Source: Tenacibaculum sp.
Lineage (GTDB): Bacteria; Bacteroidota; Bacteroidia; Flavobacteriales; Flavobacteriaceae
Assembly (NCBI GenBank): GCA_022448525.1
Contig: JAKVCX010000001.1
Location: 1 to 64,000 of the forward strand
DNA length: 64,000 nt
Reading direction: 5' to 3'
In this document: piece after piece, positions 44,209 to 62,800 of the stretch
Numbering within the stretch: position 1 is the first letter of the stretch
Layout of the letters: each line of letters begins with the position of its first letter
Made by a program: the position numbers and the translations under genes
The notes under the pieces: generated by a model
What the model was told of the DNA's origin: nothing
The model's input: only the letters and a program-made list of their open reading frames with translations
Database searches by the model: none

Positions 44209-44541
44209 ATGGGATTAACAAAGTCTGAAATATTTACAACAGAGCAGAATGAAATTGCAAGTATCGCTAAGGTTCTTGGTCATCCTGCTCGTATTGCAAT
44301 TTTAGAATATTTAGCTGCCGCTAAAACTTGTATATGTGGTGAATTAGTAAATGAAATTGGTTTAGCTCAACCAACAATATCACAACACTTAAAAGAGCTT
44401 AAAAAAATGGAAATTATAAAAGGAACCATTGAAGGAACAAGTATTTGTTACTGTTTAAATGAAGAAAAATGGAGTGAAATCAATTCCGTTTTAAAACAAT
44501 TCCTTTCAATATTCTCCGATGCAAAGAGTAATTGCTGCTAA
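44209..44541 (+). CDS. ArsR/SmtB family metalloid-responsive repressor
   Basis: A 110-residue winged-HTH repressor: VLGHPARIAILEYLAA, LVNEIGLAQPTISQHLKELKKMEIIKGTIEG. Metalloid ligands are suggested by Cys41 and Cys43 (KTCICGEL, in the usual ELCVC position of ArsR) and by the terminal Cys109-Cys110 (SNCC). It should leave the operator when arsenite or a related ion binds. It is the first gene of the operon with the ArsC-like protein and the DUF6428 protein. Confidence 0.9.
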   Translation: MGLTKSEIFTTEQNEIASIAKVLGHPARIAILEYLAAAKTCICGELVNEIGLAQPTISQHLKELKKMEIIKGTIEGTSICYCLNEEKWSEINSVLKQFLSIFSDAKSNCC

Positions 44542-44550
44542 AAAAATTTA

Positions 44551-44575
44551 AATTATTCAATCGTAATATTACAAT
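44551..44575 (+). promoter_or_regulatory. Second ArsR-like half-operator at the ArsC-like gene start
   Basis: AATTATTCAATCGTAATATTACAAT repeats the region before arsR with few changes and runs into the ATG at 44574. It suggests a second binding site within the operon. Confidence 0.5.
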
Positions 44576-45182
44576 GAATCAAAGATTAGAACAAACCATA
44601 AAAAATATTTCATCCTTACATATTTCGGAAGAAAGAAAAGAAGTCTTGAAACCACTTCTCTCCTATTTACAAAAAAAGAGGAATAACAATGAGTCTATTC
44701 GTATCAATTATATATGCACGCATAATTCCAGAAGAAGTCATTTGGGACAAATTTGGATGCAAACACTTGCTAAGCATTTCAACATTGATAATATTACAAC
44801 TTATTCAGGAGGAACGGAAGCTACTGCAATGGCAAAACCTATTGTTGAAACTTTAAAAAATCAAGGATTCGAAATTCAACAATTAAGTCAAGAACAAAAT
44901 CCGGTTTACGCTATTAAATACGATCTTAAATCATTACCGGTAATTGGTTTTTCAAAAAAATATGATAACGAATTCAATCCAAATTACGGTTTTGCTGCAA
45001 TAATGACTTGTTCTGAAGCTGACGGAGGTTGTCCTTTTGTGGCTGGTTCAGAAATTAGAGTTCCTATTACGTATGAAGATCCAAAAATATCAGATAACAC
45101 AGATAAACAAAGCGAAGTTTATTTAACAAGAAGTAATCAAATCGCATCAGAAATGTATTACGTTTTATCTCAATTAAATTAA
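44574..45182 (+). CDS. Arsenate reductase-like low-Mr phosphatase family protein
   Basis: About 202 residues from the ATG at 44574; the longer frame from 44532 overlaps the arsR stop and the operator repeat. The CX5R loop CTHNSRRS has Cys48 and Arg54; YSGGTEATAMA and TCSEADGGCPF follow, as in its orphan paralogue at 7711-8364. Position behind arsR argues for arsenate reduction through the thiol chemistry of this fold. It does not prove it, since related proteins are tyrosine phosphatases. Confidence 0.85.
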   Translation: MNQRLEQTIKNISSLHISEERKEVLKPLLSYLQKKRNNNESIRINYICTHNSRRSHLGQIWMQTLAKHFNIDNITTYSGGTEATAMAKPIVETLKNQGFEIQQLSQEQNPVYAIKYDLKSLPVIGFSKKYDNEFNPNYGFAAIMTCSEADGGCPFVAGSEIRVPITYEDPKISDNTDKQSEVYLTRSNQIASEMYYVLSQLN

Positions 45183-45188
45183 TTCATC

Positions 45189-45662
45189 ATGAAATTATCA
45201 GAAATAAAAAAACATCTTACACAACTTAAGACTATTGAATTTAAATTGCCTAATGGTGATTTAGTTCCAGAACATTTCCATGTAACAGAAGTAGGTAAAG
45301 TTACCAAACACTTCATTGATTGTGGAGGCGTTTTAAGAAAAGAAGAAAGAATCAACTTTCAATTGTGGAATGCAAATGATTACAATCATAGATTACATCC
45401 TGAAAAATTAGTTCATATAATTGAACTTTCGGAGAAAACGTTAAATCTTAAAGATGCTGAAATTGAAGTCGAATACCAAGGTGAAACCATTGGAAAATAT
45501 AATTTAGATTTCGACGGAACATCTTTTTTACTTGTAAATACAGCTACGGCTTGTTTAGCAATGGATCAATGCGGAGTTACACCTCAAGAAAAACCAAAAA
45601 TCCGTCTTTCCAATTTACAAAGCCAAGGAACATCTTGTGAGCCGGGCTCTGGATGTTGCTAA
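45189..45662 (+). CDS. DUF6428 protein of ars operons
   Basis: A 157-residue protein: MKLSEIKKHLTQLKTIEFKLPNG, VPEHFHVTEVGKVTKHFIDCGG and NFQLWNANDYNHRLHPEKL, with a Cys-rich end TSCEPGSGCC. The family is found in arsenic-resistance operons of Bacteroidetes, and its function is unknown. The vicinal Cys pair at the end could bind a trivalent metalloid, by analogy with the end of ArsR here. It starts 6 bases after the ArsC-like gene. No arsenite permease gene follows. Confidence 0.82.
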   Translation: MKLSEIKKHLTQLKTIEFKLPNGDLVPEHFHVTEVGKVTKHFIDCGGVLRKEERINFQLWNANDYNHRLHPEKLVHIIELSEKTLNLKDAEIEVEYQGETIGKYNLDFDGTSFLLVNTATACLAMDQCGVTPQEKPKIRLSNLQSQGTSCEPGSGCC

Positions 45663-47650: not shown

Positions 47651-48082
47651 ATGCTTAAGTTTTTTAAGAAAAAGAAACAGAAAGAATTCAACATTCAATG
47701 TGCTACTGATTATTTAAAAATAAATGAGCACATGTTAGATTTTCCTTGTACGCATGAAGATTTGACTAAAATTTTTGGTGAACCAACAAGAAAAATTAGT
47801 TCAAGCAATGAGTATCTTATCTGGGATGAATTCGGTTTTTTGTGCAGCGTAAATGATAATGATCAAATTTTATCACTTAGCGTTTATCAAGGAAACAATA
47901 ATCCTAGCGAATATGTTCCTCAAACTAGTTTCTACGGAAAACTTTTTTTTGAAGAAGATGATATTACTTATAATGAGTTTAGCAAAATTGGTTTAGGAAA
48001 GATTGCTATTCACCGATTAGGAAGTGAAACAGAAACTCGTTTCGGTTTTAGTATAGGTGTAAACAATGACTTTAAGAGTTAA
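47651..48082 (+). CDS. Conserved hypothetical protein next to the stress locus
   Basis: A 143-residue protein with a very basic start (MLKFFKKKKQKEF), then a compact alpha/beta region: FPCTHEDLTKIFGEPTRKISSSNEYLIWDEFGFLCSVNDNDQILSLSVYQ. No signal peptide or TM. I do not recognise the family with confidence. Its 3' end overlaps the convergent S24-like regulator by 4 bases. A link to that locus is by position only. Confidence 0.68.
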   Translation: MLKFFKKKKQKEFNIQCATDYLKINEHMLDFPCTHEDLTKIFGEPTRKISSSNEYLIWDEFGFLCSVNDNDQILSLSVYQGNNNPSEYVPQTSFYGKLFFEEDDITYNEFSKIGLGKIAIHRLGSETETRFGFSIGVNNDFKS

Positions 48083-48834
48083 CTATTACTCTTAAGTTTC
48101 AACAATTCTCTTTCTAAGAATAATAGTTTATTTTCAACATCATCGCCCACTTCAGGTAATCGGCGAATGAAAGAATATTTTGACTGCCATAGTTCCTTAA
48201 TTTCCGCTTTTTCAAAAACTTTTTCCTCTATATTTTTGTGAGCAGCCTTTAATATAACTTTATCAGCAATAAAGTAAATTTTCCTTAACACAACCTCCTT
48301 TTCCAAAACAACTAGAACAACTTCTCCATTTCCAAAAGAATCATATTCTTCTTCATTAATTTTTTCAGCAATAACTACATCCTTCGGATACAAACCTTTA
48401 TCATGGTCTGTCATTTCTAAATTTGTAACAGTAAACGCTCTTAGCAATACATCCGATTCAATAGGAAGACTAATTTCTGGTAAATCATTTAAAAAAGAGA
48501 CATTATCGTAATATTCCGAATATGATTTTATATTTCTTTCAGATACATATTTAATGGACAACATCGATTCTTTTTCTTCTAACTCATCACTTAAAAGTAA
48601 TTCATCTTTAAAACGAAGCAATTCATTTACCGTTAAATCCGATGTTAGCAAACTATCTATAGTAATGCTAAAATAATTAGCAATCTTTATAATGGTTTCT
48701 ATTCGAGGTTCACTTCTACCTTCCTCATAAGCCCCTAAAGTCGCTCTTTTCAAGTCAAATAACTCTGCGAACGCTTTTTGACTTAAACCTTTAACTCCTC
48801 TAATTTTCTTTATATTTCTACCAAAAAAAGACAT
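48079..48834 (-). CDS. HTH regulator with degenerate S24 (LexA/CI-like) domain, divergent to the psp-like operon
   Basis: About 251 residues from the ATG at 48834; the longer frame begins with TTG at 48855 inside the promoter region. The N-terminal HTH_3 domain is NIKKIRGVKGLSQKAFAELFDLKRATLGAYEEGRSEPRIETI. The C-terminal half looks like the LexA/CI/S24 fold (LLRAFTVTNLEMTDHDKGLYPKDVVIAEK, GEVVLVVLEKEVVLRKIYF). Where self-cleaving members have GDSM with the catalytic Ser, this protein reads TNLEMTD, so autoproteolysis looks unlikely. It probably binds the repeated GCTAAT elements between it and the operon. Confidence 0.82.
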   Translation of the reverse strand: MSFFGRNIKKIRGVKGLSQKAFAELFDLKRATLGAYEEGRSEPRIETIIKIANYFSITIDSLLTSDLTVNELLRFKDELLLSDELEEKESMLSIKYVSERNIKSYSEYYDNVSFLNDLPEISLPIESDVLLRAFTVTNLEMTDHDKGLYPKDVVIAEKINEEEYDSFGNGEVVLVVLEKEVVLRKIYFIADKVILKAAHKNIEEKVFEKAEIKELWQSKYSFIRRLPEVGDDVENKLLFLERELLKLKSNS

Positions 48835-48849
48835 GTTTGCTAATTTTAT

Positions 48850-48879
48850 TTGCAATTTTAATTTTTATTCGTATATTTA
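48850..48879 (+). promoter_or_regulatory. Promoter of the psp-like operon
   Basis: TTG (48850-48852) is followed after 19 bases by TATATTTA (48872-48879), close to the TTG-N19-TAnnTTTG consensus. The predicted start is near 48886, which leaves a leader of about 170 nt. Confidence 0.6.
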
Positions 48880-48903
48880 CACTAACAATATTAGCTAATA
48901 AAA

Positions 48904-48945
48904 ATGAATATTGCTAATTTTTCTAGAAAAAGTACCACTAACTAA
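48904..48945 (+). CDS. Leader ORF 1 (13 codons) in the psp-like operon
   Basis: The ORF starts with ATG and encodes MNIANFSRKSTTN. It lies in the leader and overlaps the second GCTAAT element. It is too short to judge by composition and is reported only because a second ORF follows it. Confidence 0.25.
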   Translation: MNIANFSRKSTTN

Positions 48946-48960
48946 TTAAACTAAATTATT

Positions 48961-49017
48961 ATGATTCTATTAACTTTACATTGTGCAGTAATGATTACAC
49001 AAACTATTTTTGCATAA
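48961..49017 (+). CDS. Leader ORF 2 (18 codons, hydrophobic) in the psp-like operon
   Basis: The ORF starts with ATG and encodes MILLTLHCAVMITQTIFA, a hydrophobic peptide with one Cys and no charge other than His. It ends 40 bases before the first operon gene. It could be a leader peptide or a tiny membrane peptide, or chance. Confidence 0.3.
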   Translation: MILLTLHCAVMITQTIFA

Positions 49018-49057
49018 TTCAACAATCGAAACAACTATTAAACTATACTAATTGCTA

Positions 49058-49453
49058 ATGAACATTCATTTTGAAAAAACCAAGAATTATTTATTAGAAC
49101 TAAACTTTACTATCCGTAAAGAAATCGAATCTGAGGGGATTTTTGTTATTGAAAAAGAGAATTTTGGAATTAAAAACCTGATTATAGGTGTAGCTTACCC
49201 GATTTTGATTGTAGAGCAATTTATATTCAAAGTAAAAAAGCCAAACGAAGCAATGTTTAAAGCATTACTTCAAAAAAATAGAGATATAATTCATGGCGCT
49301 TTTGTGCTGGATGAAACAGGAGAACGTGTCATTTTTAGAGACACTTTACAATTAGAAAACTTAGACATTAATGAATTGGAAGCTACCTTAAATTCTTTGA
49401 GTTTATTGCTTAGTGAATATTCAAATGAAATTATAGAATTTTCAAAATATTAA
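49058..49453 (+). CDS. YjfI/YbjN-like protein, first gene of the psp-like operon
   Basis: 131 residues from the ATG at 49058; the TTG two codons earlier lies in an operator element. It is a soluble alpha/beta protein (NIHFEKTKNYLLELNFTIRKEIES, FIFKVKKPNEAMFKALLQKNRDIIHGAFVLDETGERVIFRDTLQLENLDINELEATLNSL). The pattern fits the YbjN/type III chaperone-like fold seen in YjfI (DUF2170) proteins, which are coded beside PspA homologues in Proteobacteria. The assignment rests on pattern and context, not on a strong motif. Six bases separate it from pspA. Confidence 0.68.
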   Translation: MNIHFEKTKNYLLELNFTIRKEIESEGIFVIEKENFGIKNLIIGVAYPILIVEQFIFKVKKPNEAMFKALLQKNRDIIHGAFVLDETGERVIFRDTLQLENLDINELEATLNSLSLLLSEYSNEIIEFSKY

Positions 49454-49459
49454 AATACT

Positions 49460-50164
49460 ATGAACTTTTTTAAAAGACTTTTTAAAATAGGACAAGCGGA
49501 AGCGAATGCTGCACTAGATAGCATGGAGGATCCTATTAAAATGACCGAACAAGGTATTCGGGATTTAAAAATTGATTTGGAAAAATCTTTAGAATCATTA
49601 GCTCAAGTAAAAGCATTAGCAATTAGAGCAAAAAATGATGTAGAAGAATACACTTCTAAAGCAAATGATTATCAGCAAAAAGCAATGCTAATTCTTACCA
49701 AAGCTAAAAATGGGGAATTAGATATAGAAGAAGCTGACAAACTTGCAAAACAAGCTTTAGTTCGTAAAGAAGAGACAAATCAGCAGTTAGAAAACGCTAA
49801 AAGTGAATCTGAAAACTTTGATGAATCTGTAGCGAAACTTGAAAGCTCAGTTCAAGAAATTAAAAACTCATTAAAAAAATGGGAGAATGAACTTAGAACT
49901 TTAAAAGCTAGACATAAAGTTGCTAAAGCCACTAAAAACTTGAACAAAGAAATGGCTGAAATCGATAGTTCTAGCACAGTTTCTATGTTAGAAAGAATGA
50001 AAAATAAAATTGAACAAGAAGAAGCTCTAGCGGATGCATATGGAGATATGGCTAAAGAAAATAAAACATTAGAACAAAAATTAGAAGAGCTCACAAATAC
50101 CACTGAGCAATCTGCTGAAGATGATTTAGCAGCGCTGAAAAAGGAAATGGGATTAAATGATTAA
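49460..50164 (+). CDS. PspA/IM30 family protein
   Basis: A 234-residue, almost wholly helical protein. It starts with FFKRLFKIGQAEANAALDSMEDPIKMTEQGIRDLKIDLEKS, the amphipathic N-terminal helix and the conserved D-x-x-K-M region of PspA/IM30. Long heptad helices then run to about residue 200, and an acidic end follows (EDDLAALKKEMGLND). Such proteins form ESCRT-III-like rods on stressed inner membranes. Neighbours of the NfeD and SPFH families strengthen the membrane-stress reading. No PspF-type activator is near; the S24-like regulator probably replaces it. Confidence 0.92.
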   Translation: MNFFKRLFKIGQAEANAALDSMEDPIKMTEQGIRDLKIDLEKSLESLAQVKALAIRAKNDVEEYTSKANDYQQKAMLILTKAKNGELDIEEADKLAKQALVRKEETNQQLENAKSESENFDESVAKLESSVQEIKNSLKKWENELRTLKARHKVAKATKNLNKEMAEIDSSSTVSMLERMKNKIEQEEALADAYGDMAKENKTLEQKLEELTNTTEQSAEDDLAALKKEMGLND

Positions 50165-50170
50165 TCAATA

Positions 50171-50229
50171 ATGAATTACGAATTGTTAATTATTACCCTT
50201 AAATTTTTAATTAAAATTCGTAATTCATA
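50171..50229. repeat. Inverted repeat between pspA and the NfeD-like gene
   Basis: ATGAATTACGAATT (50171-50184) is the exact complement of AATTCGTAATTCAT (50216-50229). Inner segments (TTAATT and TAATTAA) can extend the stem. It has no T-run. It could be an intergenic repeat, an mRNA stabiliser or a processing site. Confidence 0.6.
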
Positions 50230-50256
50230 ATTTGCACCCTTAATAATAAACTAGCT

Positions 50257-51033
50257 ATGACATTAACCGATATTGTATTTTCTGATGTTAACATCACTCT
50301 GACAATACTTCTAATTATTCTTTTAACTTATTGGCTTGTTACCATGATATCTGGAATCGATTTTGATCTTGATATGGATATTGATGTTGATATAGATGTG
50401 GATGTCGATGCGGATGTTGATATAGATGCGGATGTTGATATAGATGTAGATTCTAATGTAGGTACTGGATTAGAAGGAAGTGATATGGATTTCCATGATG
50501 TCGCAAACACCGAAGTTAATAAAGAAGATATTGTTGGAAAAAGAAGAAAACCTTTAAAATGGTGGCAAGTCCTACTTATATATTTCAATTTTGTTGGACT
50601 TCCATTTATGTTCACTTTCACATCTTGGATCTTCATATGGTGGCTTATAACAACAATCGCCACTACCATGACACATAGCTACAATAATACATTTGGATTT
50701 ATTTTAATGCTTGCTGGATTTTTTCCGTCACTTATCGTGACAAAAATATTTACAACTCCATTTAAAAATTTCTTTAAAAATTTAAATCAAGATGGGGATT
50801 CTGCAACAGAAATTATTGGAAGAAAAGGAGTAAGTCTATCAACTATATCAGAAGATAAGTTAGGTAGAGCCGAAGTCAAAGCAGATGGAAATATTCTAAA
50901 CATAAATATTAAATCCCTAGATGGAAAAAAAATAGATTATAAATCACAAATATTAATCATTAAACAAAGTAAAAATAAACTTTATTACTATGCGCAAGAA
51001 TACTTAACAGATAGCATAGATATAAATTTTTAA
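50257..51033 (+). CDS. NfeD/OB-fold-like membrane protein with Asp-rich repeat
   Basis: A 258-residue protein. TM helix 1 (about 14-33) is followed by alternating Asp residues (about 36-67, DVDIDVDVDADVDIDADV type, coded by GATGTTGATATA-like repeats). A linker and two further TM segments follow (about 102-130 and 145-162). A C-terminal OB-fold-like domain (about 185-258, ATEIIGRKGVSLSTISEDKLGRAEVKADG) corresponds to the soluble domain of NfeD proteins, which pair with SPFH proteins. No ClpP-like protease part is present. The acidic repeat may bind cations; that is a guess. Confidence 0.78.
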   Translation: MTLTDIVFSDVNITLTILLIILLTYWLVTMISGIDFDLDMDIDVDIDVDVDADVDIDADVDIDVDSNVGTGLEGSDMDFHDVANTEVNKEDIVGKRRKPLKWWQVLLIYFNFVGLPFMFTFTSWIFIWWLITTIATTMTHSYNNTFGFILMLAGFFPSLIVTKIFTTPFKNFFKNLNQDGDSATEIIGRKGVSLSTISEDKLGRAEVKADGNILNINIKSLDGKKIDYKSQILIIKQSKNKLYYYAQEYLTDSIDINF

Positions 51034-51080
51034 CAATTAAATTTACAAAATATAAAATCACTAAAAACTAATTAATTACT

Positions 51081-53150
51081 ATGACAGATTCTATTATTCA
51101 ATTATTAAGTGTAGGCCTTGGTATTGTCTTATTTATCGTTATCATATATTTTGCAATTATTGCAATGTTCTACAAAAAAGTTCCTCAAGGAGAAGCTTTG
51201 GTAAGAACAGGATTTAAAGGAACAAAAGTTGCAACCGACAGAGGTATGTACGTTGTACCTGTTTTTCATCGAGTAGAAATTATGGATATTTCTGTTAAGA
51301 AAATCCAGATTGAGCGTATTGGAGACGATGGTCTTGTATGTAAAGACAATATGAGAGCTGATATAAAAGTTGCTTTTTTCGTAAGGGTAAATAACGAAGT
51401 AGAGTTCATAAAAATGGTAGCACAAACTATTGGATGCGAAAGAGCTTCTGATATTCAAACTCTTGAAGAATTATTCGAAGCTAAATTCTCCGAAGCTTTA
51501 AAAACAGTTGGTAAAAAGTTTGACTTTACAGAATTGTACGAGGCAAGACGTGAATTTAGAGATGAAATTGTTGATATTATTGGAACAGACCTTAATGGAT
51601 ATACTTTAGAAGATTGTGCTATTGATTACTTAGAGCAAACTCCTGTAACATTTTTAAAACCTGATAATATTCTTGATGCCGAAGGAATCAAAAAAATTAC
51701 GGAATTAACCGCAGCTCAAAATATTCAAGCGAATTTGATTAAAAGAGATGAGGAAAAAGTTATACGCAAGCAAGATGTTGAAGCTCGTGAAGCAATTTTA
51801 GAGCTTGATAAACAATTAGCTGAAAAACAAGAACAGCAAAGACGTGAAATTGCCAACATTAAAGCTCGCGAAGAGGCTGAAATCTTAAAAGTAGCTGAAG
51901 AAGAGCGTTTAAAATCAGAAAGTGCAAGAATTGTAACTGAAGAAAAGGTACAAGTTGCTGAAGAAAACAAACAACGCCAAGTAATTGTTGCTGAGAAAAA
52001 TAAATTACGTACTGAAGCTGTTGAAATCGAAAGAGTTGAAAAAGACAGAATGTTAGAGGCTACAGAACGTGAAAGAATTGTAACATTAGCGCAAATAGAA
52101 AAAGATAAAGTTGTTGAAGTAGAAAAGAAGAACATTCAAGATGTTATTCGTGATCGCGTTATGTTAGAAAAAGGTGTGGTTGAAGAGCGTGAAAATATGA
52201 AAGATATTGAAGCGTTTAAAACTGCTGATCGTCAGAAGCAAGTAAAAATTACTGTTGCTGAGGCGGAAGCTGAAGAATCTTTAATCAAAAGAATCAAGCA
52301 AGCAGAAGCAGAAAAAGAAGCAGCGAAGCAAAAAGCAGAAGAAATTAACATAGAAGCACAAGCTCAAAAAGAAGCAAGTGAAAAAGAAGCTGAGGCTCGT
52401 AAAACTTTAGCAGAAGCAAAAGCAAAAGAAGAAGCTACAATTGGTATGTCTGAAGCACAAGTTATGCACGCAAAAGCTGATGCTAACGAACGTCAAGGAT
52501 TAGTTGAAGCAACTATTATCGAGAAAAAAGCAAAAGCAGAAGCTGCTGGAATCTTAGCGAAGGCTGAAGCTGTTAAGGAAGAAGGATTAGCAGAAGCTCA
52601 AGTAATCAAAGAAAAAGCGATTGCAGATGCTGCTGGTATTGAAGAAAAAGCTGAAGCAATGAAGAAACTTGATGGTGTTGGAAAAGAGCACGAAGAATTC
52701 AAGTTACGTTTAGAGAAAGAATTACAAGTTGATTTAGCTCAAATTCAAATTCAAAAAGACATTGCAGATGCACAAGCACAAGTTATTGGTGACGCATTAA
52801 GAGCTGCCAATATTGATATCGTAGGAGGTGAAACAATGTTCTTTGATCAAATTATTGGACAAATTACTAAGGCGAAAGGAATCGATAGATTAGTTCAACA
52901 TAGTGATAACATTCAAGATGTAAAAGATGCTATTTTAGGAAGTGATGACGTGAAAGGAAATTTACTTGAAAAGGTAAAAGAATTTGCTACTAAATACGGA
53001 ATCTCTACCGAAGACATCAAGAACTTAACTGTAGCTAACCTTTTAATGGATTTAAAAGACAGAGCTAACAATTCAGATGAAGAAGGATTATTCAGCAATC
53101 TTTTCAACCTTGCTAAAGGATTAGGATTATCTGATAAGAAATTATCTTAA
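51081..53150 (+). CDS. SPFH/flotillin-like membrane protein
   Basis: A 689-residue protein. One N-terminal TM helix (about 7-29) is followed by the Band 7/SPFH domain (about 30-200, VPQGEALVRTGFKGTKVATDRGMYVVPVFHRVEIMDISVKKI). A very long Ala/Glu/Lys coiled coil then runs from about 220 to 600, with many AEA and EKAEA repeats. A C-terminal region (DRLVQHSDNIQDVKDAILGSDDV) ends the protein. Flotillins build large ring-like oligomers that organise membrane domains, often with an NfeD partner, here the gene 47 bases upstream. It is the last gene before an intrinsic terminator. Confidence 0.9.
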   Translation: MTDSIIQLLSVGLGIVLFIVIIYFAIIAMFYKKVPQGEALVRTGFKGTKVATDRGMYVVPVFHRVEIMDISVKKIQIERIGDDGLVCKDNMRADIKVAFFVRVNNEVEFIKMVAQTIGCERASDIQTLEELFEAKFSEALKTVGKKFDFTELYEARREFRDEIVDIIGTDLNGYTLEDCAIDYLEQTPVTFLKPDNILDAEGIKKITELTAAQNIQANLIKRDEEKVIRKQDVEAREAILELDKQLAEKQEQQRREIANIKAREEAEILKVAEEERLKSESARIVTEEKVQVAEENKQRQVIVAEKNKLRTEAVEIERVEKDRMLEATERERIVTLAQIEKDKVVEVEKKNIQDVIRDRVMLEKGVVEERENMKDIEAFKTADRQKQVKITVAEAEAEESLIKRIKQAEAEKEAAKQKAEEINIEAQAQKEASEKEAEARKTLAEAKAKEEATIGMSEAQVMHAKADANERQGLVEATIIEKKAKAEAAGILAKAEAVKEEGLAEAQVIKEKAIADAAGIEEKAEAMKKLDGVGKEHEEFKLRLEKELQVDLAQIQIQKDIADAQAQVIGDALRAANIDIVGGETMFFDQIIGQITKAKGIDRLVQHSDNIQDVKDAILGSDDVKGNLLEKVKEFATKYGISTEDIKNLTVANLLMDLKDRANNSDEEGLFSNLFNLAKGLGLSDKKLS

Positions 53151-53161
53151 TACTCATAAAG

Positions 53162-53191
53162 AGCCTAGACAAATTGCTCTAGGCTTTTTTT
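53162..53191 (+). terminator. Intrinsic terminator after the SPFH gene
   Basis: AGCCTAGA (53162-53169) pairs with TCTAGGCT (53178-53185), followed by a seven-T run. It splits the locus into two transcription units or marks partial termination. Confidence 0.88.
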
Positions 53192-53216
53192 CTTTTTCTT
53201 AATTATACTATCCAAA

Positions 53217-53915
53217 ATGCATATGAAAAGTAAATTCTTTAAAGTATTACTTATTATAAATGGTATACTCATCCCAATATTTATCATATACGTACTTGGA
53301 AATGCTTTAGACCATTATTTAAAGTACAATAACTTTGGCTCTAACCCTAATGATAGTGTTGATATGACCGAACTTACAGAAATTAGACAAAGTTCTTTAA
53401 TCAAAATACCGAATTCTGAAAATTATATTACAGCAGAATATTATTTAAATTATCATAGAGGCTTTGGCACTGAGGGTGAAGATGAATTGAATCTACCCTA
53501 CCAAGTTCCAAAGAATACATTTAATATCATTTTTTTGGATTCTAAATTTAACCAAATCAGAAAATTATTAAAAAAGAAAGGCTCTATCAAAAGTGTTTTT
53601 ATCTCAAATACTTTTTACTCACACAATAAAGACACTGTAGAAAAATTACCTTATCTCTCTTTCTACATTGCTGAAAAAGATTCTAATAATGACGGTAAGA
53701 TTAACAATCTTGATCAACATTACGTTTACATATCAGATCTAGATGGAGATAATTTAACCAAGATTTCTGATAGAAAAGTTAGAACATATGAGTGGGTTAA
53801 TGATAATAAAGAAATATTATTAACTTTTGTTTCTGATAAAGATTCAAAATTAAGCTTTGGACTTTACAACGTTAAAACCAAAACTATGACTATTCCAAAA
53901 ACAATAAAAGATTAA
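53217..53915 (+). CDS. Membrane-anchored protein with EF-hand/TolB-like segment, unknown function
   Basis: A 232-residue protein with one N-terminal TM helix (about 8-28; a second ATG at 53223 may be the real start) and a periplasmic domain. The most telling segment is AEKDSNNDGKINNLDQHYVYISDLDGDNLTKISD, an EF-hand/dockerin-like loop followed by a TolB-like beta-propeller blade. I know no function for it. It lies between the SPFH gene and the AAA+ gene on the same strand and is probably part of the system. Confidence 0.72.
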   Translation: MHMKSKFFKVLLIINGILIPIFIIYVLGNALDHYLKYNNFGSNPNDSVDMTELTEIRQSSLIKIPNSENYITAEYYLNYHRGFGTEGEDELNLPYQVPKNTFNIIFLDSKFNQIRKLLKKKGSIKSVFISNTFYSHNKDTVEKLPYLSFYIAEKDSNNDGKINNLDQHYVYISDLDGDNLTKISDRKVRTYEWVNDNKEILLTFVSDKDSKLSFGLYNVKTKTMTIPKTIKD

Positions 53916-53988
53916 ATCATTCTTTTATTTAATAAAATATGTCTTATTAATTCAAGTATATAGCTAACCATATTGATTTAAACAATAC

Positions 53989-56900
53989 ATGGAAAACCAA
54001 AACAATCAACAATTAGACGGAGGAACCTATGAAATCATTCAAGGTAGATTGCAAAAACAAAAGCATGAACTACAAGATCGATTACATAAGCTAAATGATG
54101 CAAGAAAACATGTTTTTGGTAACATAGAAACCAAACTAATTGCTAACGATAGAATCAATACTGAAAATAACTGTATTGCCAGAGATATTGTATCCTTTGG
54201 AAATACTTCAATTTTCGGATATAACGTACACTTTGGATTACGAACAGACATTAAATTATCGGATGTATTTAGTGTTTATGAATTCAAAGAAAATCACTTT
54301 CATTTACAAACGCTCGACCTAATAAATGACGACCTTTTTATAAATGATTTCACCAACCTTTACAAATACTATCGTAACACCATATTCTCCAAGTTCGCCA
54401 TTGTTGGAAACTACCTTCACATGGTATTTCAACTTAGCGAAAACACCAACGACATAAAAACCTTTAAATGGTTAATCAACGATAATTCACTTCAATATGT
54501 TGACAACAGAAGTGAACATGAATATAAATTTCCAACACAACACGAATTCCAGTGGCAAGAAGTTACTAGAGATATGCATCGTTATGGAACACATTCGCAT
54601 ATTTCAGTTCTTGATAAAGTTTTTGTTGAAACCATTGGAGGTGATTTAACCATTAAAATTGAAGACAACACAGACGATGGAAAAGGAATTTTATCTGAAC
54701 CTGTTGAACATTATGACCAAACTTTAGATGATGGTCAGTTTAGATATGGAGATTTAGGTAATTTAACGACTTTAGAGATTAAACCTTTCCAGGAAGATCC
54801 TCGTTATTTTGTGTATAATCATAAACTGCAAGAAGTCCAAAGAATTGACAGTATTAAAGATACTGCTGTTCAACTTCCGGACGGACATGGAATAATTTTC
54901 CCAAATGGTTATTATTTACAAACAGGAGAATACAAAATCTTTGAAAGTGATGTAAAGGAAGTTAAATTTCAAAAGAAAGTTAGCTCTCCAAATGGTGAAG
55001 ACTTTTTGTATGTATTTTATGCTACCATTCGTGGTTTATACATTTTAATGTCATACAACATCATTGAACAAGAAGTAAAAACTCCAATAATTTGTAATGG
55101 TTTCACCTTACTTGAAAATGGTGAATTATGTTACTTCCGTACAGAAAACGAACAAACAAAACATCATGTAGTGCAAATTTGGCAAACTCCTTATTTAAAA
55201 GGAAGTTTTATGCCATCACAACACACTGATACTTTATTATATAAAATCGGGAATAAAGACATTGTAAGAGCCATGGCTGAATGTCATGAGTTAATTAACC
55301 TCTTAAACAAAGAGGATAATTATACTGGCTTATACAATGATATTGCAAAAATATCGAAAGATATAAACGATACTTACTATTGGCTTCCTGAAGAAGAAAC
55401 ACATCAATTAAACGAACCAATTCTTCAAATTAATGAAGCTGCTAATGCTGCTATTGAGGAATTTGAAAAAGTAGTTCAACTAAAGAAGCAAGCGGAAAAA
55501 GCTACTCAAGAAATCAATAAGAAATCTGATGAGCTTTTTAGTAAAATAAGAAGTACTTCTTTTAAATCTATTGATGATTTTGTTGGATTGTTAAGTCAGC
55601 TTAGAAGTTTACGTGGTGAAGTAATTAGTTTATACGACGTTCGATATATTCAAAAAGAACATTTAGAAGCATTAGAAGAACAAGTTGCAGAACAAAACAA
55701 CTTAATTTCGAAACGCTGTGTTCAATTTTTATTAAATGATAAGGCCTTAGCCCCATATCATAAAAGAGTTTCAGAAAAAGAAAAAGCTTTACCTGAAATC
55801 AAAAAAGTGGTTGATGCAAAAGCTTTAGAAAAAGAAGTAAATCAAATTACTGCTGATTTGGAAATGTTAATTGATATCGTTTCAAATCTTGAAATTGAAG
55901 ACACTTCTCAATCAACAAAAATAATTGATAACATTTCGTTGATTTTTGCTACATTAAATCAATTAAAAGCAGGAATTAAAAACTCAATTAAAAATCTTGG
56001 TAGTTCTGAAGCGAAAGCAGATTTTGTTGCTCAATTAAAATTAATTGATCAAAGTATCATCAACTATATTGACATGGCTACAACGCCAGAAAAATGTGAT
56101 GAATTCTTAACTAAAACTGCGATTCAACTAGAAGAATTAGAAGGTAAATTTGCTGATTTTGAAGAATTCATTGGTCAAATTATTGAAAAACGTGAAGAAA
56201 TACACGCTGCTTTTGACACTAGAAAGAATAACTTAATTGAAAAAAGAAATAAAAAAGCCGTTGCTCTCCAAACTGCATCAGAAAGAATTTTAAAAGGAGT
56301 TGCAAAAAAAGCCCAGAGCTTCGATACGGTAGAAGACATTAACGGTTATTTTGCTGCCGACTTAATGATTAACAAAGTAAGAGATATTGTTAATCAATTA
56401 AAAGAATTAGATGATGCCGGAAAAGCTGAAGCAATAGAAACTCAACTAAAAGTTGCTAAAGAAGATGCTTTAAGAAAGTTAAAAGACAAGCAAGAATTAT
56501 ATGAGGATGGTGAGAACATCATTAAACTAGGAAAACATAAATTCGGGGTAAACAAACAAGTATTAGACTTAACCATTGTTTATAAAAACGAGGAGCTATA
56601 TTATCATTTAACGGGTACTGATTTTTATGATACCATTGATAATAAAATCTTACTACAATCGAAAAAATATTGGAATCAAGAGTTAGTTTCAGAAAACGGT
56701 GATGTTTACAGAGCAGCTTATTTAGCTTATAAAATTTTCAAGAGCAAACCCGAATCTGAATTATTAAATAAAACGGTAGAACAATTACTTGAAGTTGTAC
56801 AAAAAGAAAGTAGTAATTTATATTCTGAAGGATATGTAAAAGGAGTTCATGACGTGGATGCTAGCCAAATATTACATAAACTTGCTCATAAACATCATGA

Positions 56901-58842
56901 GTTAGGATTACTTACCTTCTCTCCTACTATTAGAGGACATGCACAGTATTTTTGGAATTCTTTGGAAGAAGAACAACAAACATTACTTAATTCTAACATA
57001 AAAGCTTCTGGAGAAGTTTTAAGTGTTTTTCCAGACAGTGAATCGTATTCATTTATCATTGAAAACCTGAGTGAAACTATTGAGATTTTTGCAGAGAAAT
57101 CTAAACTTTTTAGATCTGAAAGTTGTACTGAAATCGCACACTATTTATTTGATGAACTAAAAGCGAATAACACGTTTCAATTAAGCACTGATGCCGTTAG
57201 TTTAAAAGAAGATTTTATCAAAACTTTGAAAAAACAAGACGCTTATCATAAGTTTAAAAGCGGGATTGATAAAATTGAAAGCTATACAGATAAAATAAAC
57301 TTAGTTAAACAATGGATCGCTTCTTTTCTTTCTACTAAAGATGAGAGCACACTATCATATATCGATGAAATGGTTTGTATTTCATTATTTGAGCACGAAT
57401 CAAATTCTGAAATTAAAGCGGTTCATCCTATAGAAAATATTGAAAACCTAAAAGGAGATCACAACTCGATTACTGATGGAATTCTTGAGTTTAATTATCA
57501 TGAATTTATTCAAAAACTTGAACATTTTGTTTCTGTAGAAGTTCCAAATTATATTCAATATAAAGAAGCGAAACAAGAAGTTACAAATCAGCTAAAAGAA
57601 GATTTAAAGTTAGAAGAATTTAAACCTAGAGTTCTATCTTCTTTTGTTAGAAATAAATTAATTGATCAAGTTTACTTTCCTTTAATCGGAGATAATTTAG
57701 CGAAACAACTTGGAACAGTTGGTGACAATAAGCGTACCGACAGAATGGGAATGTTATTGTTAATTTCTCCTCCAGGTTATGGTAAAACCACTTTAATGGA
57801 ATACATATCAAATCGATTAGGTTTGGTATTCATGAAAATTAATGGTCCTGCTATTGGTCATGAAGTAACTTCGGTCGATCCAATGTCCGCTAATAATTCA
57901 GCTTCTAGAGAAGAATTAAAAAAGTTGAACTTGGCTTTTGAAATGGGCGATAATGTGATGTTATATTTAGACGATATACAACATTGTAATCCTGAATTTT
58001 TACAAAAGTTTATTTCATTATCTGATGGAACTCGTAAAGTTGAAGGTGTTTTTAACGGTAAACCGAAAACCTACGACTTACGTGGAAAGAAATTCTGCGT
58101 AATCATGGCTGGAAATCCATATACAGAAAGTGGAGATCGTTTCCAAATTCCTGATATGTTAGCTAACCGTGCTGATATTTACAATTTAGGAGACATAATT
58201 GGAGATACAGCGCATTTATTCAAATTGAGTTTAATAGAAAACTCATTAACATCAAACCCTGTTTTACACCAATTAAGTAGTAAATATTTTGAAGATGTAT
58301 ATTCTTTAATTGATAAAGTTGAAAACAATACAGGTGATGTTGATTTGAAAGGAAATCACACGAAGCAGGAAATTCAAGATTACACATCTGTTTTAGAGAA
58401 AGTAATTACGGTTCGCGACACAGTTTTAAAAGTAAATCAAGCTTATATTCAATCTGCCGCAATGGAAGATCAATATAGAACCGAACCTTCTTTTAAATTA
58501 CAAGGATCGTATCGTGATATGAATAAACTAGTTGCGAAAATTGTTCCTATTATGAACAATGATGAATTGCAACGATTGTTATTATCTCATTACGAAAGTG
58601 AATCACAAACTTTAACCTCAGCAGCCGAAGGAAACTTATTGAAATATAAAGAGCTTATAAATAAACTTTCAGAAGAGGAAAGCGCTCGTTGGAATAGTAT
58701 TAAAGAAATTTTCTTGAAAAACAATAAACTGAAAGGCTTTGGAGACAAGAATGAAATGGCCCAAATATTAAGTCAAATGATGGCATTCTCTGAAAACTTA
58801 GAGGGCATTAAAGAAGCACTTCAAAAAGGATTAGAAAAATAA
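53989..58842 (+). CDS. Giant MoxR-like AAA+ protein (DNA repair ATPase-labelled family)
   Basis: A 1617-residue cytoplasmic protein. The N-terminal 45 residues are a coiled coil. The next 420 or so contain beta-rich sequence with repeated aromatic/acidic blades (YEFKENHFHLQTLDLINDD, FRYGDLGNLTTLEIKPF). Long helices and coiled coils run from about 480 to 860. After another mixed region, the AAA+ domain starts near 1240: Walker A SPPGYGKTT (about 1262-1270), Walker B VMLYLDDIQHC (about 1325) and sensor 1 VIMAGNPYTESGDRFQIPD. Large proteins of this type are annotated as DNA repair ATPases, but no nuclease or DNA-binding motif is visible. Position behind PspA, NfeD and SPFH genes suggests membrane or protein remodelling. 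Confidence 0.85.
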   Translation: MENQNNQQLDGGTYEIIQGRLQKQKHELQDRLHKLNDARKHVFGNIETKLIANDRINTENNCIARDIVSFGNTSIFGYNVHFGLRTDIKLSDVFSVYEFKENHFHLQTLDLINDDLFINDFTNLYKYYRNTIFSKFAIVGNYLHMVFQLSENTNDIKTFKWLINDNSLQYVDNRSEHEYKFPTQHEFQWQEVTRDMHRYGTHSHISVLDKVFVETIGGDLTIKIEDNTDDGKGILSEPVEHYDQTLDDGQFRYGDLGNLTTLEIKPFQEDPRYFVYNHKLQEVQRIDSIKDTAVQLPDGHGIIFPNGYYLQTGEYKIFESDVKEVKFQKKVSSPNGEDFLYVFYATIRGLYILMSYNIIEQEVKTPIICNGFTLLENGELCYFRTENEQTKHHVVQIWQTPYLKGSFMPSQHTDTLLYKIGNKDIVRAMAECHELINLLNKEDNYTGLYNDIAKISKDINDTYYWLPEEETHQLNEPILQINEAANAAIEEFEKVVQLKKQAEKATQEINKKSDELFSKIRSTSFKSIDDFVGLLSQLRSLRGEVISLYDVRYIQKEHLEALEEQVAEQNNLISKRCVQFLLNDKALAPYHKRVSEKEKALPEIKKVVDAKALEKEVNQITADLEMLIDIVSNLEIEDTSQSTKIIDNISLIFATLNQLKAGIKNSIKNLGSSEAKADFVAQLKLIDQSIINYIDMATTPEKCDEFLTKTAIQLEELEGKFADFEEFIGQIIEKREEIHAAFDTRKNNLIEKRNKKAVALQTASERILKGVAKKAQSFDTVEDINGYFAADLMINKVRDIVNQLKELDDAGKAEAIETQLKVAKEDALRKLKDKQELYEDGENIIKLGKHKFGVNKQVLDLTIVYKNEELYYHLTGTDFYDTIDNKILLQSKKYWNQELVSENGDVYRAAYLAYKIFKSKPESELLNKTVEQLLEVVQKESSNLYSEGYVKGVHDVDASQILHKLAHKHHELGLLTFSPTIRGHAQYFWNSLEEEQQTLLNSNIKASGEVLSVFPDSESYSFIIENLSETIEIFAEKSKLFRSESCTEIAHYLFDELKANNTFQLSTDAVSLKEDFIKTLKKQDAYHKFKSGIDKIESYTDKINLVKQWIASFLSTKDESTLSYIDEMVCISLFEHESNSEIKAVHPIENIENLKGDHNSITDGILEFNYHEFIQKLEHFVSVEVPNYIQYKEAKQEVTNQLKEDLKLEEFKPRVLSSFVRNKLIDQVYFPLIGDNLAKQLGTVGDNKRTDRMGMLLLISPPGYGKTTLMEYISNRLGLVFMKINGPAIGHEVTSVDPMSANNSASREELKKLNLAFEMGDNVMLYLDDIQHCNPEFLQKFISLSDGTRKVEGVFNGKPKTYDLRGKKFCVIMAGNPYTESGDRFQIPDMLANRADIYNLGDIIGDTAHLFKLSLIENSLTSNPVLHQLSSKYFEDVYSLIDKVENNTGDVDLKGNHTKQEIQDYTSVLEKVITVRDTVLKVNQAYIQSAAMEDQYRTEPSFKLQGSYRDMNKLVAKIVPIMNNDELQRLLLSHYESESQTLTSAAEGNLLKYKELINKLSEEESARWNSIKEIFLKNNKLKGFGDKNEMAQILSQMMAFSENLEGIKEALQKGLEK

Positions 58843-58845
58843 AAT

Positions 58846-59331
58846 ATGGTTTCAGAAAACAAAAAAAAGCAATTGTTATACAATTGCTTTTTCCTTCTTA
58901 TAGGATTTTTAATTATTTATGATTATTCGTATTACGATAAAATTAAACATGAGAAAATAACCAAAATTACTGTTCAAAGAGATGTCCCAAATCACTACAA
59001 TAGATCTCAGAATGAAACTAGGAAATACTCCTACGAAATTTATACTGAACATTATAATTTTTATTGCTCTTCAGACTTTGCTTTTTCCGTTAACGAAGGT
59101 GAAGATATCATAATTTATGAATCTGCATTATTTGGTGAAGTGAATTATTATGAGGGAACTAAAAACGGTATAACAGAACATAATACTTTTAGAGAGTTTT
59201 ATGGATTTCAATTTCCGCTATGTATGCTCATAGCCATTGTTATTAGTTACTTCTTTCTGAGTAAACTATATGTAATTGACTTTATTGCTAAAGTTTTTCT
59301 GCTTGTTAATTTATTATATGTAATTATCTAA
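58846..59331 (+). CDS. Small membrane protein of unknown function, last gene of the stress locus
   Basis: A 161-residue protein. TM helices lie at about 13-26, 124-140 and 143-160, and the region between is mostly soluble (KITVQRDVPNHYNRSQNETRKYSYEIYTEHYNFYCSSDFAFSVNEGEDIIIYES), resembling DUF3592-type folds. It starts 3 bases after the AAA+ stop codon. An intrinsic terminator lies inside its first 16 codons, so its expression may be strongly reduced. The function is unknown. Confidence 0.7.
   Translation: MVSENKKKQLLYNCFFLLIGFLIIYDYSYYDKIKHEKITKITVQRDVPNHYNRSQNETRKYSYEIYTEHYNFYCSSDFAFSVNEGEDIIIYESALFGEVNYYEGTKNGITEHNTFREFYGFQFPLCMLIAIVISYFFLSKLYVIDFIAKVFLLVNLLYVII
58864..58892 (+). terminator. 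Terminator hairpin inside the 5' end of the last gene of the stress locus
   Basis: AAAAAGCAATTG (58864-58875) pairs exactly with CAATTGCTTTTT (58881-58892) around a 5-nt loop. It overlaps codons 7-16 of the gene at 58846-59331 and could end the AAA+ mRNA. Confidence 0.7.
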
Positions 59332-59897: not shown

Positions 59898-62800
59898 CTA
59901 CATTTTTATAATTCTTCTTGATGCAACTCTTCCCTCTTCATTTGTTACCTTTAACAAATAGACTCCATTTACTAATTCAGAAATATTCACCTTGGTCTCT
60001 TTTGTTTCAATAACTTTTTTTCCTAGTAAACTATAAATTACTACTTTCTTAATTTGGTACTCATTGACTATTTCAATATTCAATATATCAGTAGCTGGAA
60101 TTGGGTACACCTTAACTCCTTTGTTAAATTCTAAGTCAACTACGCTAGCAGTAACTGCACTGAACATTGCTGTAACTGTTTTATCAGCATCCATTGTAAT
60201 CGTTAATGGATTGGTAGTTCCTGTAGCATCTCCACTCCATCCATCAAATTGATAACCTGAAGCTGGTGTAGCTGTTAATTCAACTAAAGATCCATCATCA
60301 TAAGTTCCTCCTGTTGGATTTGGATTTGTACTCACAGAACCATTTGTAGCATTTAGCGTTAACGTACGTTGAATTTTACTGAACATTGCTGTTATAGTCT
60401 TATCAGCATCCATTGTAATCGTTAATGGATTGGTAATTCCTGTAGCAGCTCCACTCCATCCATCAAATTGATAACCAGCATCTGGAGTAGCAGTTAATTC
60501 AACTGAAGTTCCATCGTCGTAGGTTCCTCCTGTTGGATTTGGGTTTGTACTCACAGAACCATTTGTAGCATTGATAGCTAATACGCGCTGAATTTTACTG
60601 AAATTTGCTGTAATTGTTTTATTAGCATCCATTGTAATGGTTAACGGATTCGTAGTTCCTGTAGCAGCTCCACTCCATCCATCAAATTGATAACCAGCAT
60701 CTGGAGTAGCAGTTAATTCAACTGAAGTTCCATCATCATAAGTTCCTCCTGTTGGATTTGGATTTGTACTCACAGAACCATTTGTAGTATTTAGCGTTAA
60801 TGTACGTTGAATTTTACTGAACATTGCTGTTATAGTCTTATCAGCATCCATTGTAATCGTTAATGGATTGGTAATTCCTGTAGCGGCTCCACTCCATCCA
60901 TCAAATTGATAACCAGCATCTGGAGTAGCAGTTAATTCAACTGAAGTTCCATCATTATAGATCCCATTAGTAGGATTTGGATTTGTAGAAACAACTCCAT
61001 TTACAGCATTTATTGTTAAATATCTCGGCAAATAATTTGTTGATCCAAATTCGTAAGCTCCTCTATCAACCGTTGTATTATGAATTCGAACTCTCCCTAA
61101 CAAGTCAGTTACAATTCCTGTAGGAATTTTAGAATTATCACCACTATCCACAGCAGGTGATACAGCCTGAAGGGTAAAATCTCCGTTTACTGCATCAGTA
61201 AATAAAGGATCAGAATTAGAGCTATTGATTACATTTCCCATTGGAATATTAGAAAAATTATTCTCGTCAATACTATTACTCACCGATATTCCCGGAGCTA
61301 TACTTGAATCTGTTCTTCTACCAAAGGCAAGTGATGTATTACCACTATTATCTGTATTTCCCCAAAAAATATTATTTGCAATATTAATTGTTCCGAAGGT
61401 TCCATTTTCCTGACTTAAACCTACAGTAGCGAAGTCTGAACTCCCTGTTCCTTCATTTCTATTATTTACAAAAGTATTATTTACAATTGTAGGCGAAATA
61501 ACACTTCCTGTATTAAAAGCTCTTAACCAAATAGCACTTAACCCTCTTCCTAAAGCTGAACCATTATCTTCTGTCCTATTGTTTTCAAATAGTGAATTCG
61601 AAATAGTAAAATTCATACTTGTATTATCTCCTGGAGTAGCAAATAATGCAGCAGCTACATTTGTACTAACATTGTTTTTGAAAATACATGAATCAACATT
61701 ATAATTTTGTGCTGAACTACCGGAAACACGAGAATATAAAGCTCCTCCGATAACACCTGCATTTTCCTCTAAACGAGAGTTTCTAATCGTGAATTTATCA
61801 ATATTACCGGTTATGTATATTGCAGCACCTAGCCTGAAATCATTAGCGCCATTGGCATGTCCTCCAGAAATTGTAACTCCATCTAGTAAAACATTATCGC
61901 CCCTAATATCCACTACATGATAACTATTATCTGAACGATCTGGTTTATTTACAAAAATACTTCCGTTATCGTTTCCTTGAAGATCACCGCTTAAAATGGT
62001 TCTATTAACGTTATGAATCAAAGAATTATCTCTAGCTGATAAAGAGATCTCTGTTCCATCAAATCCACCATAAATTTTTACATTTTCAGTATTTATTGTA
62101 AATGGATTAGTTCTATCAGAAGAATCAGGCGTATAAGTTCCTTTTGCTATCCAAATTTCTTCTCCATCTAATGCTACAGATAACGCATCTTGTAAATCTG
62201 TATAAGCATTTGTCCAATCTGCCCCATCATTATTTCCTACTGCGCTTGCATTAACATATAATATACTAGTTCCGGAAATTTTTGCTTCAGACCATCCCAA
62301 ATTTGGATCATTACAGTTTTGATTTTTAACATAAAAGAAGTATCTCACAGGATCTAAACCTGAAATTGATGTTGTACCCGACGGGTTCGCCGAAATAATT
62401 GTTGCATTACTAAAAGGTTCAGAACTCTTATGATAAGCTATATTAAAACTACCTGAGCCATTTATTACTAATTCTACGTTATTATTTGATGTACTTGTAA
62501 TTGTAAAATCGGTAGTTGGGAAAATCAAACAATCTTCATTTTCTCTATAAATATTTTGAATTTCAGCAGCTGATAAAATTCTATCATGAATTGCAAAATC
62601 ATCAAAACTATCTGAATAAAACGTACTGCTAGAAAGTGAAGCTGAGCGAACTTGAAATAAGTATGAAGATAAATCTTCATCAAACGAAATATTTGGGTCA
62701 AAACTTAATACTGGACCAATATTTTCTGAGTTATCTAAAACCCCATCTACATAAATAGAACTTGAAAAAACTGTTGTATTTTGATATACAGCAGAACCAG

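Follow-up and report, generated by a model that had tools for sequence, protein, structure and literature searches.

A candidate membrane-stress operon of Bacteroidota that joins a REG–CesT–PspA module to a YqiJ–YqiK–AAA+ core

Which partner does a very large AAA+ protein serve when it is encoded together with PspA, an NfeD-like membrane protein and a flotillin-like (SPFH) protein, and how is such a gene set controlled? This question is raised by a locus in a stretch of 64,000 nucleotides of Tenacibaculum sp. DNA (the window). In a tree of the AAA+ proteins the nearest named relatives of the window belong to Tenacibaculum, and its closest relative, locus L010, has an AAA+ protein that is 91% identical. 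The source genome (3.9 Mb in 19 contigs) has a single match to DUF3686, the Pfam family that marks this AAA+ protein, and a single match to PspA, both at the locus. A first-pass annotation had read the genes as one membrane-stress unit under a regulator other than PspF, with an ATPase acting on PspA or SPFH assemblies; the eight open reading frames (ORFs) that it listed are all present, on the strands and in the order given. We find that the operon joins two separable modules, i.e. module A, consisting of a divergently oriented regulator (REG), a CesT/Tir-like protein (CesT) and PspA, and module B, consisting of an NfeD-type YqiJ-like protein, an SPFH-type YqiK-like protein and the AAA+ protein. 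By gene order, the AAA+ protein most likely acts on an SPFH/NfeD scaffold, with PspA as an added effector.

This picture emerges from a census of 98 loci, i.e. the window, seven further Bacteroidota genomes, the 80 closest of 575 genome-contig matches and ten of 12 plasmid-collection records (hits H3 and H11 not being included), with protein families built by iterated searches with hidden Markov models (HMMs). Nine loci in which less than 4.5 kb of sequence precedes the AAA+ gene were dropped. In the remaining 89, the region upstream of the AAA+ gene contains SPFH in 88, NfeD/YqiJ in 85, PspA in 53, and CesT and REG in 51 each, the latter two always together and always with PspA. All five genes occur in 51 loci, NfeD plus SPFH in 32, SPFH only in three (with a small unclassified gene annotated upstream of SPFH in two of them), PspA plus NfeD and SPFH in two, and none in one. 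Because SPFH accompanies the AAA+ gene so much more regularly than PspA does, the AAA+ protein most likely serves SPFH/NfeD and not mainly PspA, and the idea of PspA as its main target is not supported. The first-pass annotation had named as its own weak point that AAA+ homologues might occur mostly without PspA or SPFH genes beside them; this is not so for SPFH and partly so for PspA.

The NfeD–SPFH–AAA+ core is found in Planctomycetota, Desulfobacterales, Verrucomicrobiia, Calditrichia, Fibrobacterota, Gammaproteobacteria and Actinomycetota, and SPFH with AAA+ also in Deinococcus. In this sample, the combination of REG, CesT and PspA occurs only in the Bacteroidota clade, with six changes on a FastTree tree, and within Bacteroidota the joined gene order is kept across many genera. 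DUF3686 is rare, occurring in eight of 296 evenly drawn Bacteroidota genomes, the window's genome included. All eight have the complete six-gene set, and since the other seven also share its order (7/7), the grouping is more than chance. The view of PspA, NfeD/YqiJ, SPFH/YqiK and a MoxR-like AAA+ protein as one conserved unit under a non-PspF regulator is supported, and this unit most plausibly serves envelope stress.

Each module also exists without the other. A search for PspA_IM30 in the genomes of 21 of the 36 PspA-less loci (plus that of L054) found a match over the cut-off elsewhere in 12 of the 21, one only below the cut-off in a single genome, and none in eight. Among these eight are genomes that carry no metagenome-assembled label, namely those of Hyunsoonleella pacifica (L043), of two Pontibacter (L066 and L071) and of Rhodopirellula baltica BR-MGV (L093). 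The eight speak against PspA as an obligate substrate of the AAA+ protein. Ravi et al. (2024, PMC11237479) suggested that a PspA gene at another locus may serve the shorter operons, and the eight also count against this as a general rule. As to module A, CesT_Tir_1 matches occur in 39 of the 296 Bacteroidota genomes, with E below 1e-40 in 19. The DUF3686 genomes account for eight of the 19; in the remaining 11 the CesT gene adjoins PspA without exception (11/11), and no AAA+, SPFH, NfeD or REG gene was found by the HMMs in the 6 to 11 kb fetched around each pair. Among 14 core-only genomes, a subset of the above 21, CesT_Tir_1 occurs elsewhere in three, adjoining PspA in all three. Aureivirga marina has REG–CesT–PspA, with divergent REG, and the YqiJ–YqiK–AAA+ core at separate loci of one genome. 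Our CesT HMM is blind to the DUF2170/YjfI type, and the annotated YjfI gene of L096 is not counted as CesT. As the AAA+ core thus occurs without PspA and CesT–PspA without the AAA+ gene, the operon is a joining of two modules.

These data also bear on an alternative close to the ESCRT-like role discussed by Ravi et al., i.e. that the AAA+ protein is a bacterial analogue of Vps4 that disassembles PspA polymers, with SPFH/NfeD merely placing the reaction. PspA is ESCRT-III-like (PMC11746142), shares the locus with the AAA+ gene in more than half of the cases and is encoded elsewhere in the genome for the above 12 PspA-less loci; moreover, distances among the AAA+ proteins are correlated with those among the PspA proteins (Spearman 0.83), but so are those of all pairs of the six proteins (0.72–0.92). 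Against it stand the eight genomes that keep the AAA+ protein without a PspA match, the near-constant presence of SPFH, the CesT–PspA pairs found without AAA+, and the lack of an MIT domain among the Pfam matches of the AAA+ protein. Overall, we consider this alternative rather unlikely, but the AAA+ protein may well turn over PspA where both occur.

The preferred reading, in which the AAA+ protein acts on SPFH/NfeD, likens the core to HflKC–FtsH: SPFH and NfeD would form a scaffold at the membrane, and the AAA+ protein would be the ATP-driven motor belonging to it. The flotillin-like family aligns with E. coli YqiK over 400 columns (hhalign probability 99.95, E 4.7e-38) and the NfeD-like family with E. 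coli YqiJ (probability 94, E 1.4e-7), and by this YqiJ profile match the latter is assigned to the YqiJ/YuaF type with three transmembrane segments. Pfam gives no match for either of these two proteins of the window itself; YqiJ_N is found in two of 11 members of the former family and Band_7 in one of 12 members of the latter. The window's YqiJ-like protein (50257–51033) also carries an acidic aspartate–valine repeat; of ten aligned relatives, most have a shorter one or none. In module A, CesT additionally matches YbjN (E 2.4e-4, slightly under the Pfam cut-off), and the PspA family matches E. coli YjfJ by profile (probability 93).

The AAA+ protein itself has Pfam matches to DUF3686 (E 2.4e-180, residues 27–464), DUF7902 (residues 585–668) and AAA_5/AAA (residues 1256–1379), and its N-terminus is modelled as a beta-propeller. 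Its best fold matches in structure comparison (with L073 excluded from the alignments, where the reading ran to 2820 residues) are NorQ and CbbQ, and this fold, together with patterns that we take to be Walker A, Walker B, sensor 1, the arginine finger and sensor 2, marks it as MoxR-type. No protease domain match was found by Pfam in this protein and no VWA match in the proteins of the operon. In the databases, record names and the Pfam title present it as a DNA-repair ATPase. However, RuvB and p97 of known structure match its sequence only in the P-loop stretch, its best folds point elsewhere and nearly every locus has SPFH/NfeD-like neighbours, and we regard a role in DNA repair as extremely improbable.

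How is this gene set controlled? REG was found by HMM in all 51 CesT-bearing loci. Its helix–turn–helix domain matches HTH_3 (E 1.3e-12), and its C-terminal domain is S24-like, as had been proposed, in a degenerate form: the Peptidase_S24 match (16.6 bits) stays under the Pfam cut-off of 23.3. LexA-type proteins have a nucleophilic serine in this domain; the window's REG has glutamate at the aligned position. The motif of the S24-like tail (xxEM) is matched in 44 of the 51 REG proteins (seven are unmatched), and the residue at the serine position is glutamate in 40 of these 44, with serine, threonine, alanine and aspartate found once each. Because of this glutamate, the S24-like domain is probably not self-cleaving.

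The intergenic region between REG and CesT is rich in operator-like sites. GCTAAT or ATTAGC occurs 129 times, in 40 of 51 such regions, as compared with a mean of 13.9 and a maximum of 25 in 100 shuffles; 20 of 51 regions contain the palindrome TTAGCTAA (mean 0.9 and maximum 3 in 100 shuffles), and TTGCTAAT/ATTAGCAA reaches a density of 3.6 per kb in these regions, compared with 0.11 per kb elsewhere in these loci. A -7-like element, which follows a Bacteroidota-type promoter consensus, is seen in 41 of 51 regions as a raw, uncontrolled count from at most four listed matches per locus; 28 of the 51 have it at offset 63 or 41, counted from REG. In the window, operator-like sites flank this element on both sides. 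From this layout we infer that REG may be a repressor which also controls its own gene. For PspA operons in general, encoded helix–turn–helix regulators have been described by Popp et al. (2022, PMC9239133).

In Aureivirga, where the modules lie apart, there are four GCTAAT-type sites in the 420 bp upstream of the core operon, a number reached in six of 1000 shuffles, and none in nine other loci examined in the same way, a hint of shared control in trans. This would also suit a scenario in which the modules are only co-expressed, i.e. PspA/CesT and SPFH/AAA+ respond to the same stress with no contact between them; each module is also found alone. On the other hand, the Aureivirga region on the REG side has only one site, the joined order is kept over many genera of Bacteroidota, which commonly counts as an indication that the products share a complex, and a link between PspA and SPFH has been reported for Bacillus subtilis (PMC8581546). 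Co-expression without contact seems to us an unlikely explanation, on a par with the Vps4-like one.

A further element, located between the putative promoter and CesT, is a short hydrophobic reading frame (micro-ORF). With limits of 12–25 codons, a mean hydropathy of at least 1.0 and a fixed place, chosen after the ORFs had been seen, counterparts are found in 31 of 36 loci, i.e. the REG–CesT–PspA loci in the window's clade of the AAA+ tree, versus a mean of 2.8 and a maximum of 9 in 200 shuffles. Irregular cases are L044, where the passing ORF is not the aligned one, L026, where the aligned ORF lies just below the hydropathy limit, and L032, with a longer ORF. All eight Aquimarina copies are exactly 72 nucleotides long. 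In ten pairs, chosen by hand and not all strictly independent (L022–L041 and L048–L049 share a tree branch), substitutions at codon positions 1/2/3 number 30/19/54 (one-sided p=5e-5); the sums per group, taken over non-independent pairs, are 11/0/29 in Maribacter, 135/102/236 in Aquimarina, 22/13/25 in Leeuwenhoekiella and 77/44/78 in the window's group.

Several observations count against the micro-ORF. The reverse strand gives 6/36, which shows that short hydrophobic frames arise fairly readily in the AT-rich DNA of these loci. None of the 15 other REG–CesT–PspA loci (Flavobacterium orientale and F. jejuense included) has one, with at least two of their regions being too short for the tested place (L009, 121 nt; L091, 100 nt). 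In three of four groups, DNA identity is no higher in the ORF than in its flanks (Aquimarina, 0.77 versus 0.77/0.76; Maribacter, 0.82 versus 0.81/0.87; window's group, 0.61 versus 0.63/0.62), and with 16 synonymous and 110 non-synonymous codon changes the peptide varies within the window's group. On balance, the micro-ORF is probably translated, and either the peptide or the act of translation could matter. A much bolder idea, to which, after a slight discount for these contrary observations, we give somewhat less credence than to either alternative above, is that it encodes a membrane microprotein of 12 to 23 residues which senses stress for the operon or acts as its anti-repressor. The microprotein, or the translation of its frame, would let CesT/PspA and the S24-like domain of REG, which does not cleave itself, know how the inner membrane is faring, and the GCTAAT operators would thereby be freed, with the propeller–MoxR protein being the dedicated ATP motor of SPFH/NfeD cages, independent of PspA in many phyla.

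Our working model can be put as follows. In the unstressed cell, REG would keep the promoter shut via the flanking GCTAAT sites, from which envelope stress would release it. SPFH/NfeD would then build a membrane domain or cage, to which the AAA+ protein might dock by its propeller in order to use ATP for remodelling this assembly or the proteins held there. PspA, kept competent by CesT, could coat or reseal damaged membrane; in our reading, PspA–CesT is a membrane-repair arm recruited under the same regulator in Bacteroidota, and in the window's clade the hydrophobic micro-ORF in the leader would belong to module A. Computation shows the two-module structure, the conserved regulator, the enrichment of operator-like sites, the lost S24 serine and the propeller and MoxR folds, and it is repression, docking, target and physiology that are inferred. 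That the two modules in one operon and under one regulator work in this way, with repression by REG, a SPFH/NfeD scaffold with an AAA+ motor and a PspA–CesT arm, has in our view about an even chance of being right.

A number of points weigh against this model. Taking the 80 closest of 575 relatives biases the proportions, and in one locus (L065) the AAA+ gene has neither SPFH nor NfeD nor PspA in the 10 kb upstream. Completeness is not given for the 21 genomes searched for PspA, and a distant paralogue could escape the profile. GCTAAT sites are absent from 11 of the 51 REG–CesT regions, so that the operator reading does not cover all loci, and it fits poorly with the single site on the REG side in Aureivirga (L138). 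Moreover, SPFH is proposed as the AAA+ target from gene order, the Bacteroidota operon being known from sequence only, and deletions of SPFH genes in Pseudomonas aeruginosa, single or combined, gave no pronounced phenotype (PMC13086221).

The nature of the stress may also be questioned, as the operon could provide an envelope defence triggered by phage or contact rather than by general stress. In P. aeruginosa, expression of PA3728–PA3732, which include a listed ‘ATPase’ (PA3728; PMC8190622) next, by number, to the SPFH gene PA3729, was raised in all phage-infected samples (PMC12041424), and the operon's patchy distribution among Bacteroidota as well as its presence on plasmids would be in line with this. 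Yet this infection response may be unspecific. PA3731 is also induced by osmotic shock, though not by heat shock (PMC2587700); furthermore, PADLOC matches are weak or generic and the AAA+ protein is unmatched in 50,697 phage records. We therefore think a defence function improbable, although less so than a role in DNA repair.

The features of the locus are compiled in the table. REG most likely starts at the conserved methionine at 48834, and not at 48855, and CesT possibly at an ATG at 49058 instead of 49052. Intergenic gaps are 6 bp (CesT–PspA), 92 bp (PspA–NfeD), 47 bp (NfeD–SPFH), 66 bp (SPFH–232-aa gene), 73 bp (232-aa gene–AAA+) and 3 bp (AAA+–161-aa gene).

Table. Features of the operon and its control region in the window.
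Feature	Position	Strand	Remarks
REG: XRE-type helix–turn–helix plus degenerate S24/LexA-like C-terminal domain	48079..48834	-	divergent to operon
Operator-like site O1, TTTGCTAATTTTATTTGCAA, beside REG start	48836..48855	.	GCTAAT/ATTAGC enrichment
-7-like element TATATTTAC, putative operon promoter; TTTG ends 19 bases upstream	48872..48880	+	pattern match
Operator-like palindrome O2, AATATTAGCTAATA	48887..48900	.	TTAGCTAA pattern enrichment
Operator-like site O3, TTGCTAATTTTTCTAG	48911..48926	.	further TTGCTAAT at 49052, CesT start
Micro-ORF, hydrophobic, 18 codons, MILLTLHCAVMITQTIFA	48961..49017	+	counterparts in related loci
CesT/Tir-like protein (YjfI/BacA analogue)	49052..49453	+	PF22550 CesT_Tir_1, E 1.4e-56
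PspA/IM30 family protein (bacterial ESCRT-III)	49460..50164	+	PF04012 PspA_IM30, E 7.1e-44
NfeD/YqiJ-like membrane protein, acidic D-V repeat	50257..51033	+	hhalign to YqiJ
SPFH/flotillin-like protein, YqiK family	51081..53150	+	hhalign to YqiK
232-aa membrane-anchored protein, local insert between SPFH and AAA+	53217..53915	+	
1617-aa AAA+ protein: N-terminal beta-propeller, long helical middle, C-terminal MoxR-type AAA+	53989..58842	+	
161-aa small membrane protein, orphan	58846..59331	+	

Two of these genes, which the first-pass annotation had counted as members, are not conserved parts of the operon: the 232-aa and 161-aa membrane proteins are encoded in none of the other 97 loci, the nearest relative L010 included. 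The former has 28 database proteins including its own cluster (named organisms are Tenacibaculum, Cellulophaga and a Flavobacteriaceae metagenome-assembled genome), the latter a single database cluster with 96% identity. The slot between SPFH and AAA+ in Aquimarina (L022, L023, L024, L025, L026, L039, L041, L048, L049) holds one to several short proteins that share an IKxEPVSEE-like stretch, and in other genera unrelated genes; with the window's 232-aa gene also sitting there, it looks like a variable insertion site.

Further genes were noted next to the core in other genomes. In Vibrio and Photobacterium (L099, 16834–18612; L105, 17553–18635) a TelA (toxic anion resistance) gene follows the NfeD–SPFH–AAA+ core, in Vibrio with a phospholipase-D-like gene in between. 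A Proteus record (L098, 6678–8458) has TPM-domain and LemA genes directly upstream of the core on the opposite strand, and on plasmid pQBR103 (L096, 3986–17190) a yjfI–pspA–rhomboid–DUF2491–DUF350–DUF1190–glutathionylspermidine synthase cluster is directly followed by the YqiJ-like–SPFH–AAA+ core. By eye, the window also encodes a large repeat-containing protein (NPTGGTYDDGTSVELTATP...) whose C-terminal part looks like a Bacteroidota sorting tail (59898–63383). At 44209–45662, likewise by eye, the gene of an ArsR-like regulator precedes those of an arsenate-reductase-like protein and of another small protein.

With respect to the turnover of bacterial ESCRT-III (PspA) and SPFH assemblies, the operon class offers an AAA+ candidate, for which the counts point to SPFH/NfeD as the first partner to consider, with PspA-less genomes as natural controls. 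Regulator, operator-like sites and micro-ORF make its regulation directly testable in marine Flavobacteriaceae.

In relation to known systems, the operon class as such is not new, contrary to the earlier impression of a non-standard system: Ravi et al. (2024, PMC11237479) have described operons with CesT/Tir–PspA, YqiJ-like/YuaF, band-7/flotillin and beta-propeller AAA+ proteins (example ANH61663.1) and proposed ESCRT-like roles. The window is alike in gene set and domain architectures, with an adjacent CesT/Tir–PspA dyad and matching band-7-type, beta-propeller AAA+ and YqiJ/YuaF-type members. For this group, section 19 of that paper mentions neither operators nor a micro-ORF nor a divergent XRE regulator of the pseudo-S24 kind, and, as far as the literature searched goes, the regulator–operator layout, the degenerate S24 regulator, the micro-ORF and the PspA-less genomes appear to be new. 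Band-7 genes beside pspA in Bacteroidota were noted by Popp et al. (2022, PMC9239133).

A relative of the operon seems to be bacABCDEF of P. aeruginosa (PA14_16140–16200), with BacA being a YjfI/CesT-like protein of known crystal structure and BacB a PspA protein (PMC10948618), followed by a short NfeD (BacC), an SPFH protein (BacD) and then bacE and bacF (PMC13086221). It is transcribed as one unit according to reverse-transcription PCR, and loss of BacA raises BacB to BacF 6.1- to 13.5-fold (PMC10948618). The order YjfI/CesT, PspA, NfeD, SPFH is the same as in the window, and PA3728/BacE is a candidate DUF3686 protein. The bac operon differs in having a DUF2170-type YjfI and a putative sigma-54 promoter, and the parts of these reports drawn on here mention no XRE gene. 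PspA has been compared with ESCRT-III/Vps4, with PspF seemingly not essential for remodelling, and no Vps4-like partner is named in the part of this plasticity study consulted here (PMC11746142).

In E. coli, YqiJ, YqiK and YjfJ match the families of the window by profile, but yqiJK and yjfIJ lie at separate loci; DUF3686 is found in none of 14 control genomes, E. coli included. The E. coli Psp system (PspF–PspABC) is similar in that an effector of the PspA family stands beside a divergent regulator, which in the window, however, is of the XRE type (HTH_3 plus S24-like tail) instead of the NtrC type of PspF (NtrC AAA+ plus Fis helix–turn–helix), and no PspB or PspC Pfam match occurs among ten proteins scanned at the locus. 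In contrast to the MoxR-type proteins NorQ and CbbQ, the AAA+ protein has a propeller and an extended helical region fused to its AAA+ domain, in an operon that has no VWA match. Finally, FtsH with HflK/HflC is a case of an AAA+ motor paired with SPFH proteins, and the window shares this pairing, with an AAA+ protein that differs in having no protease domain match.

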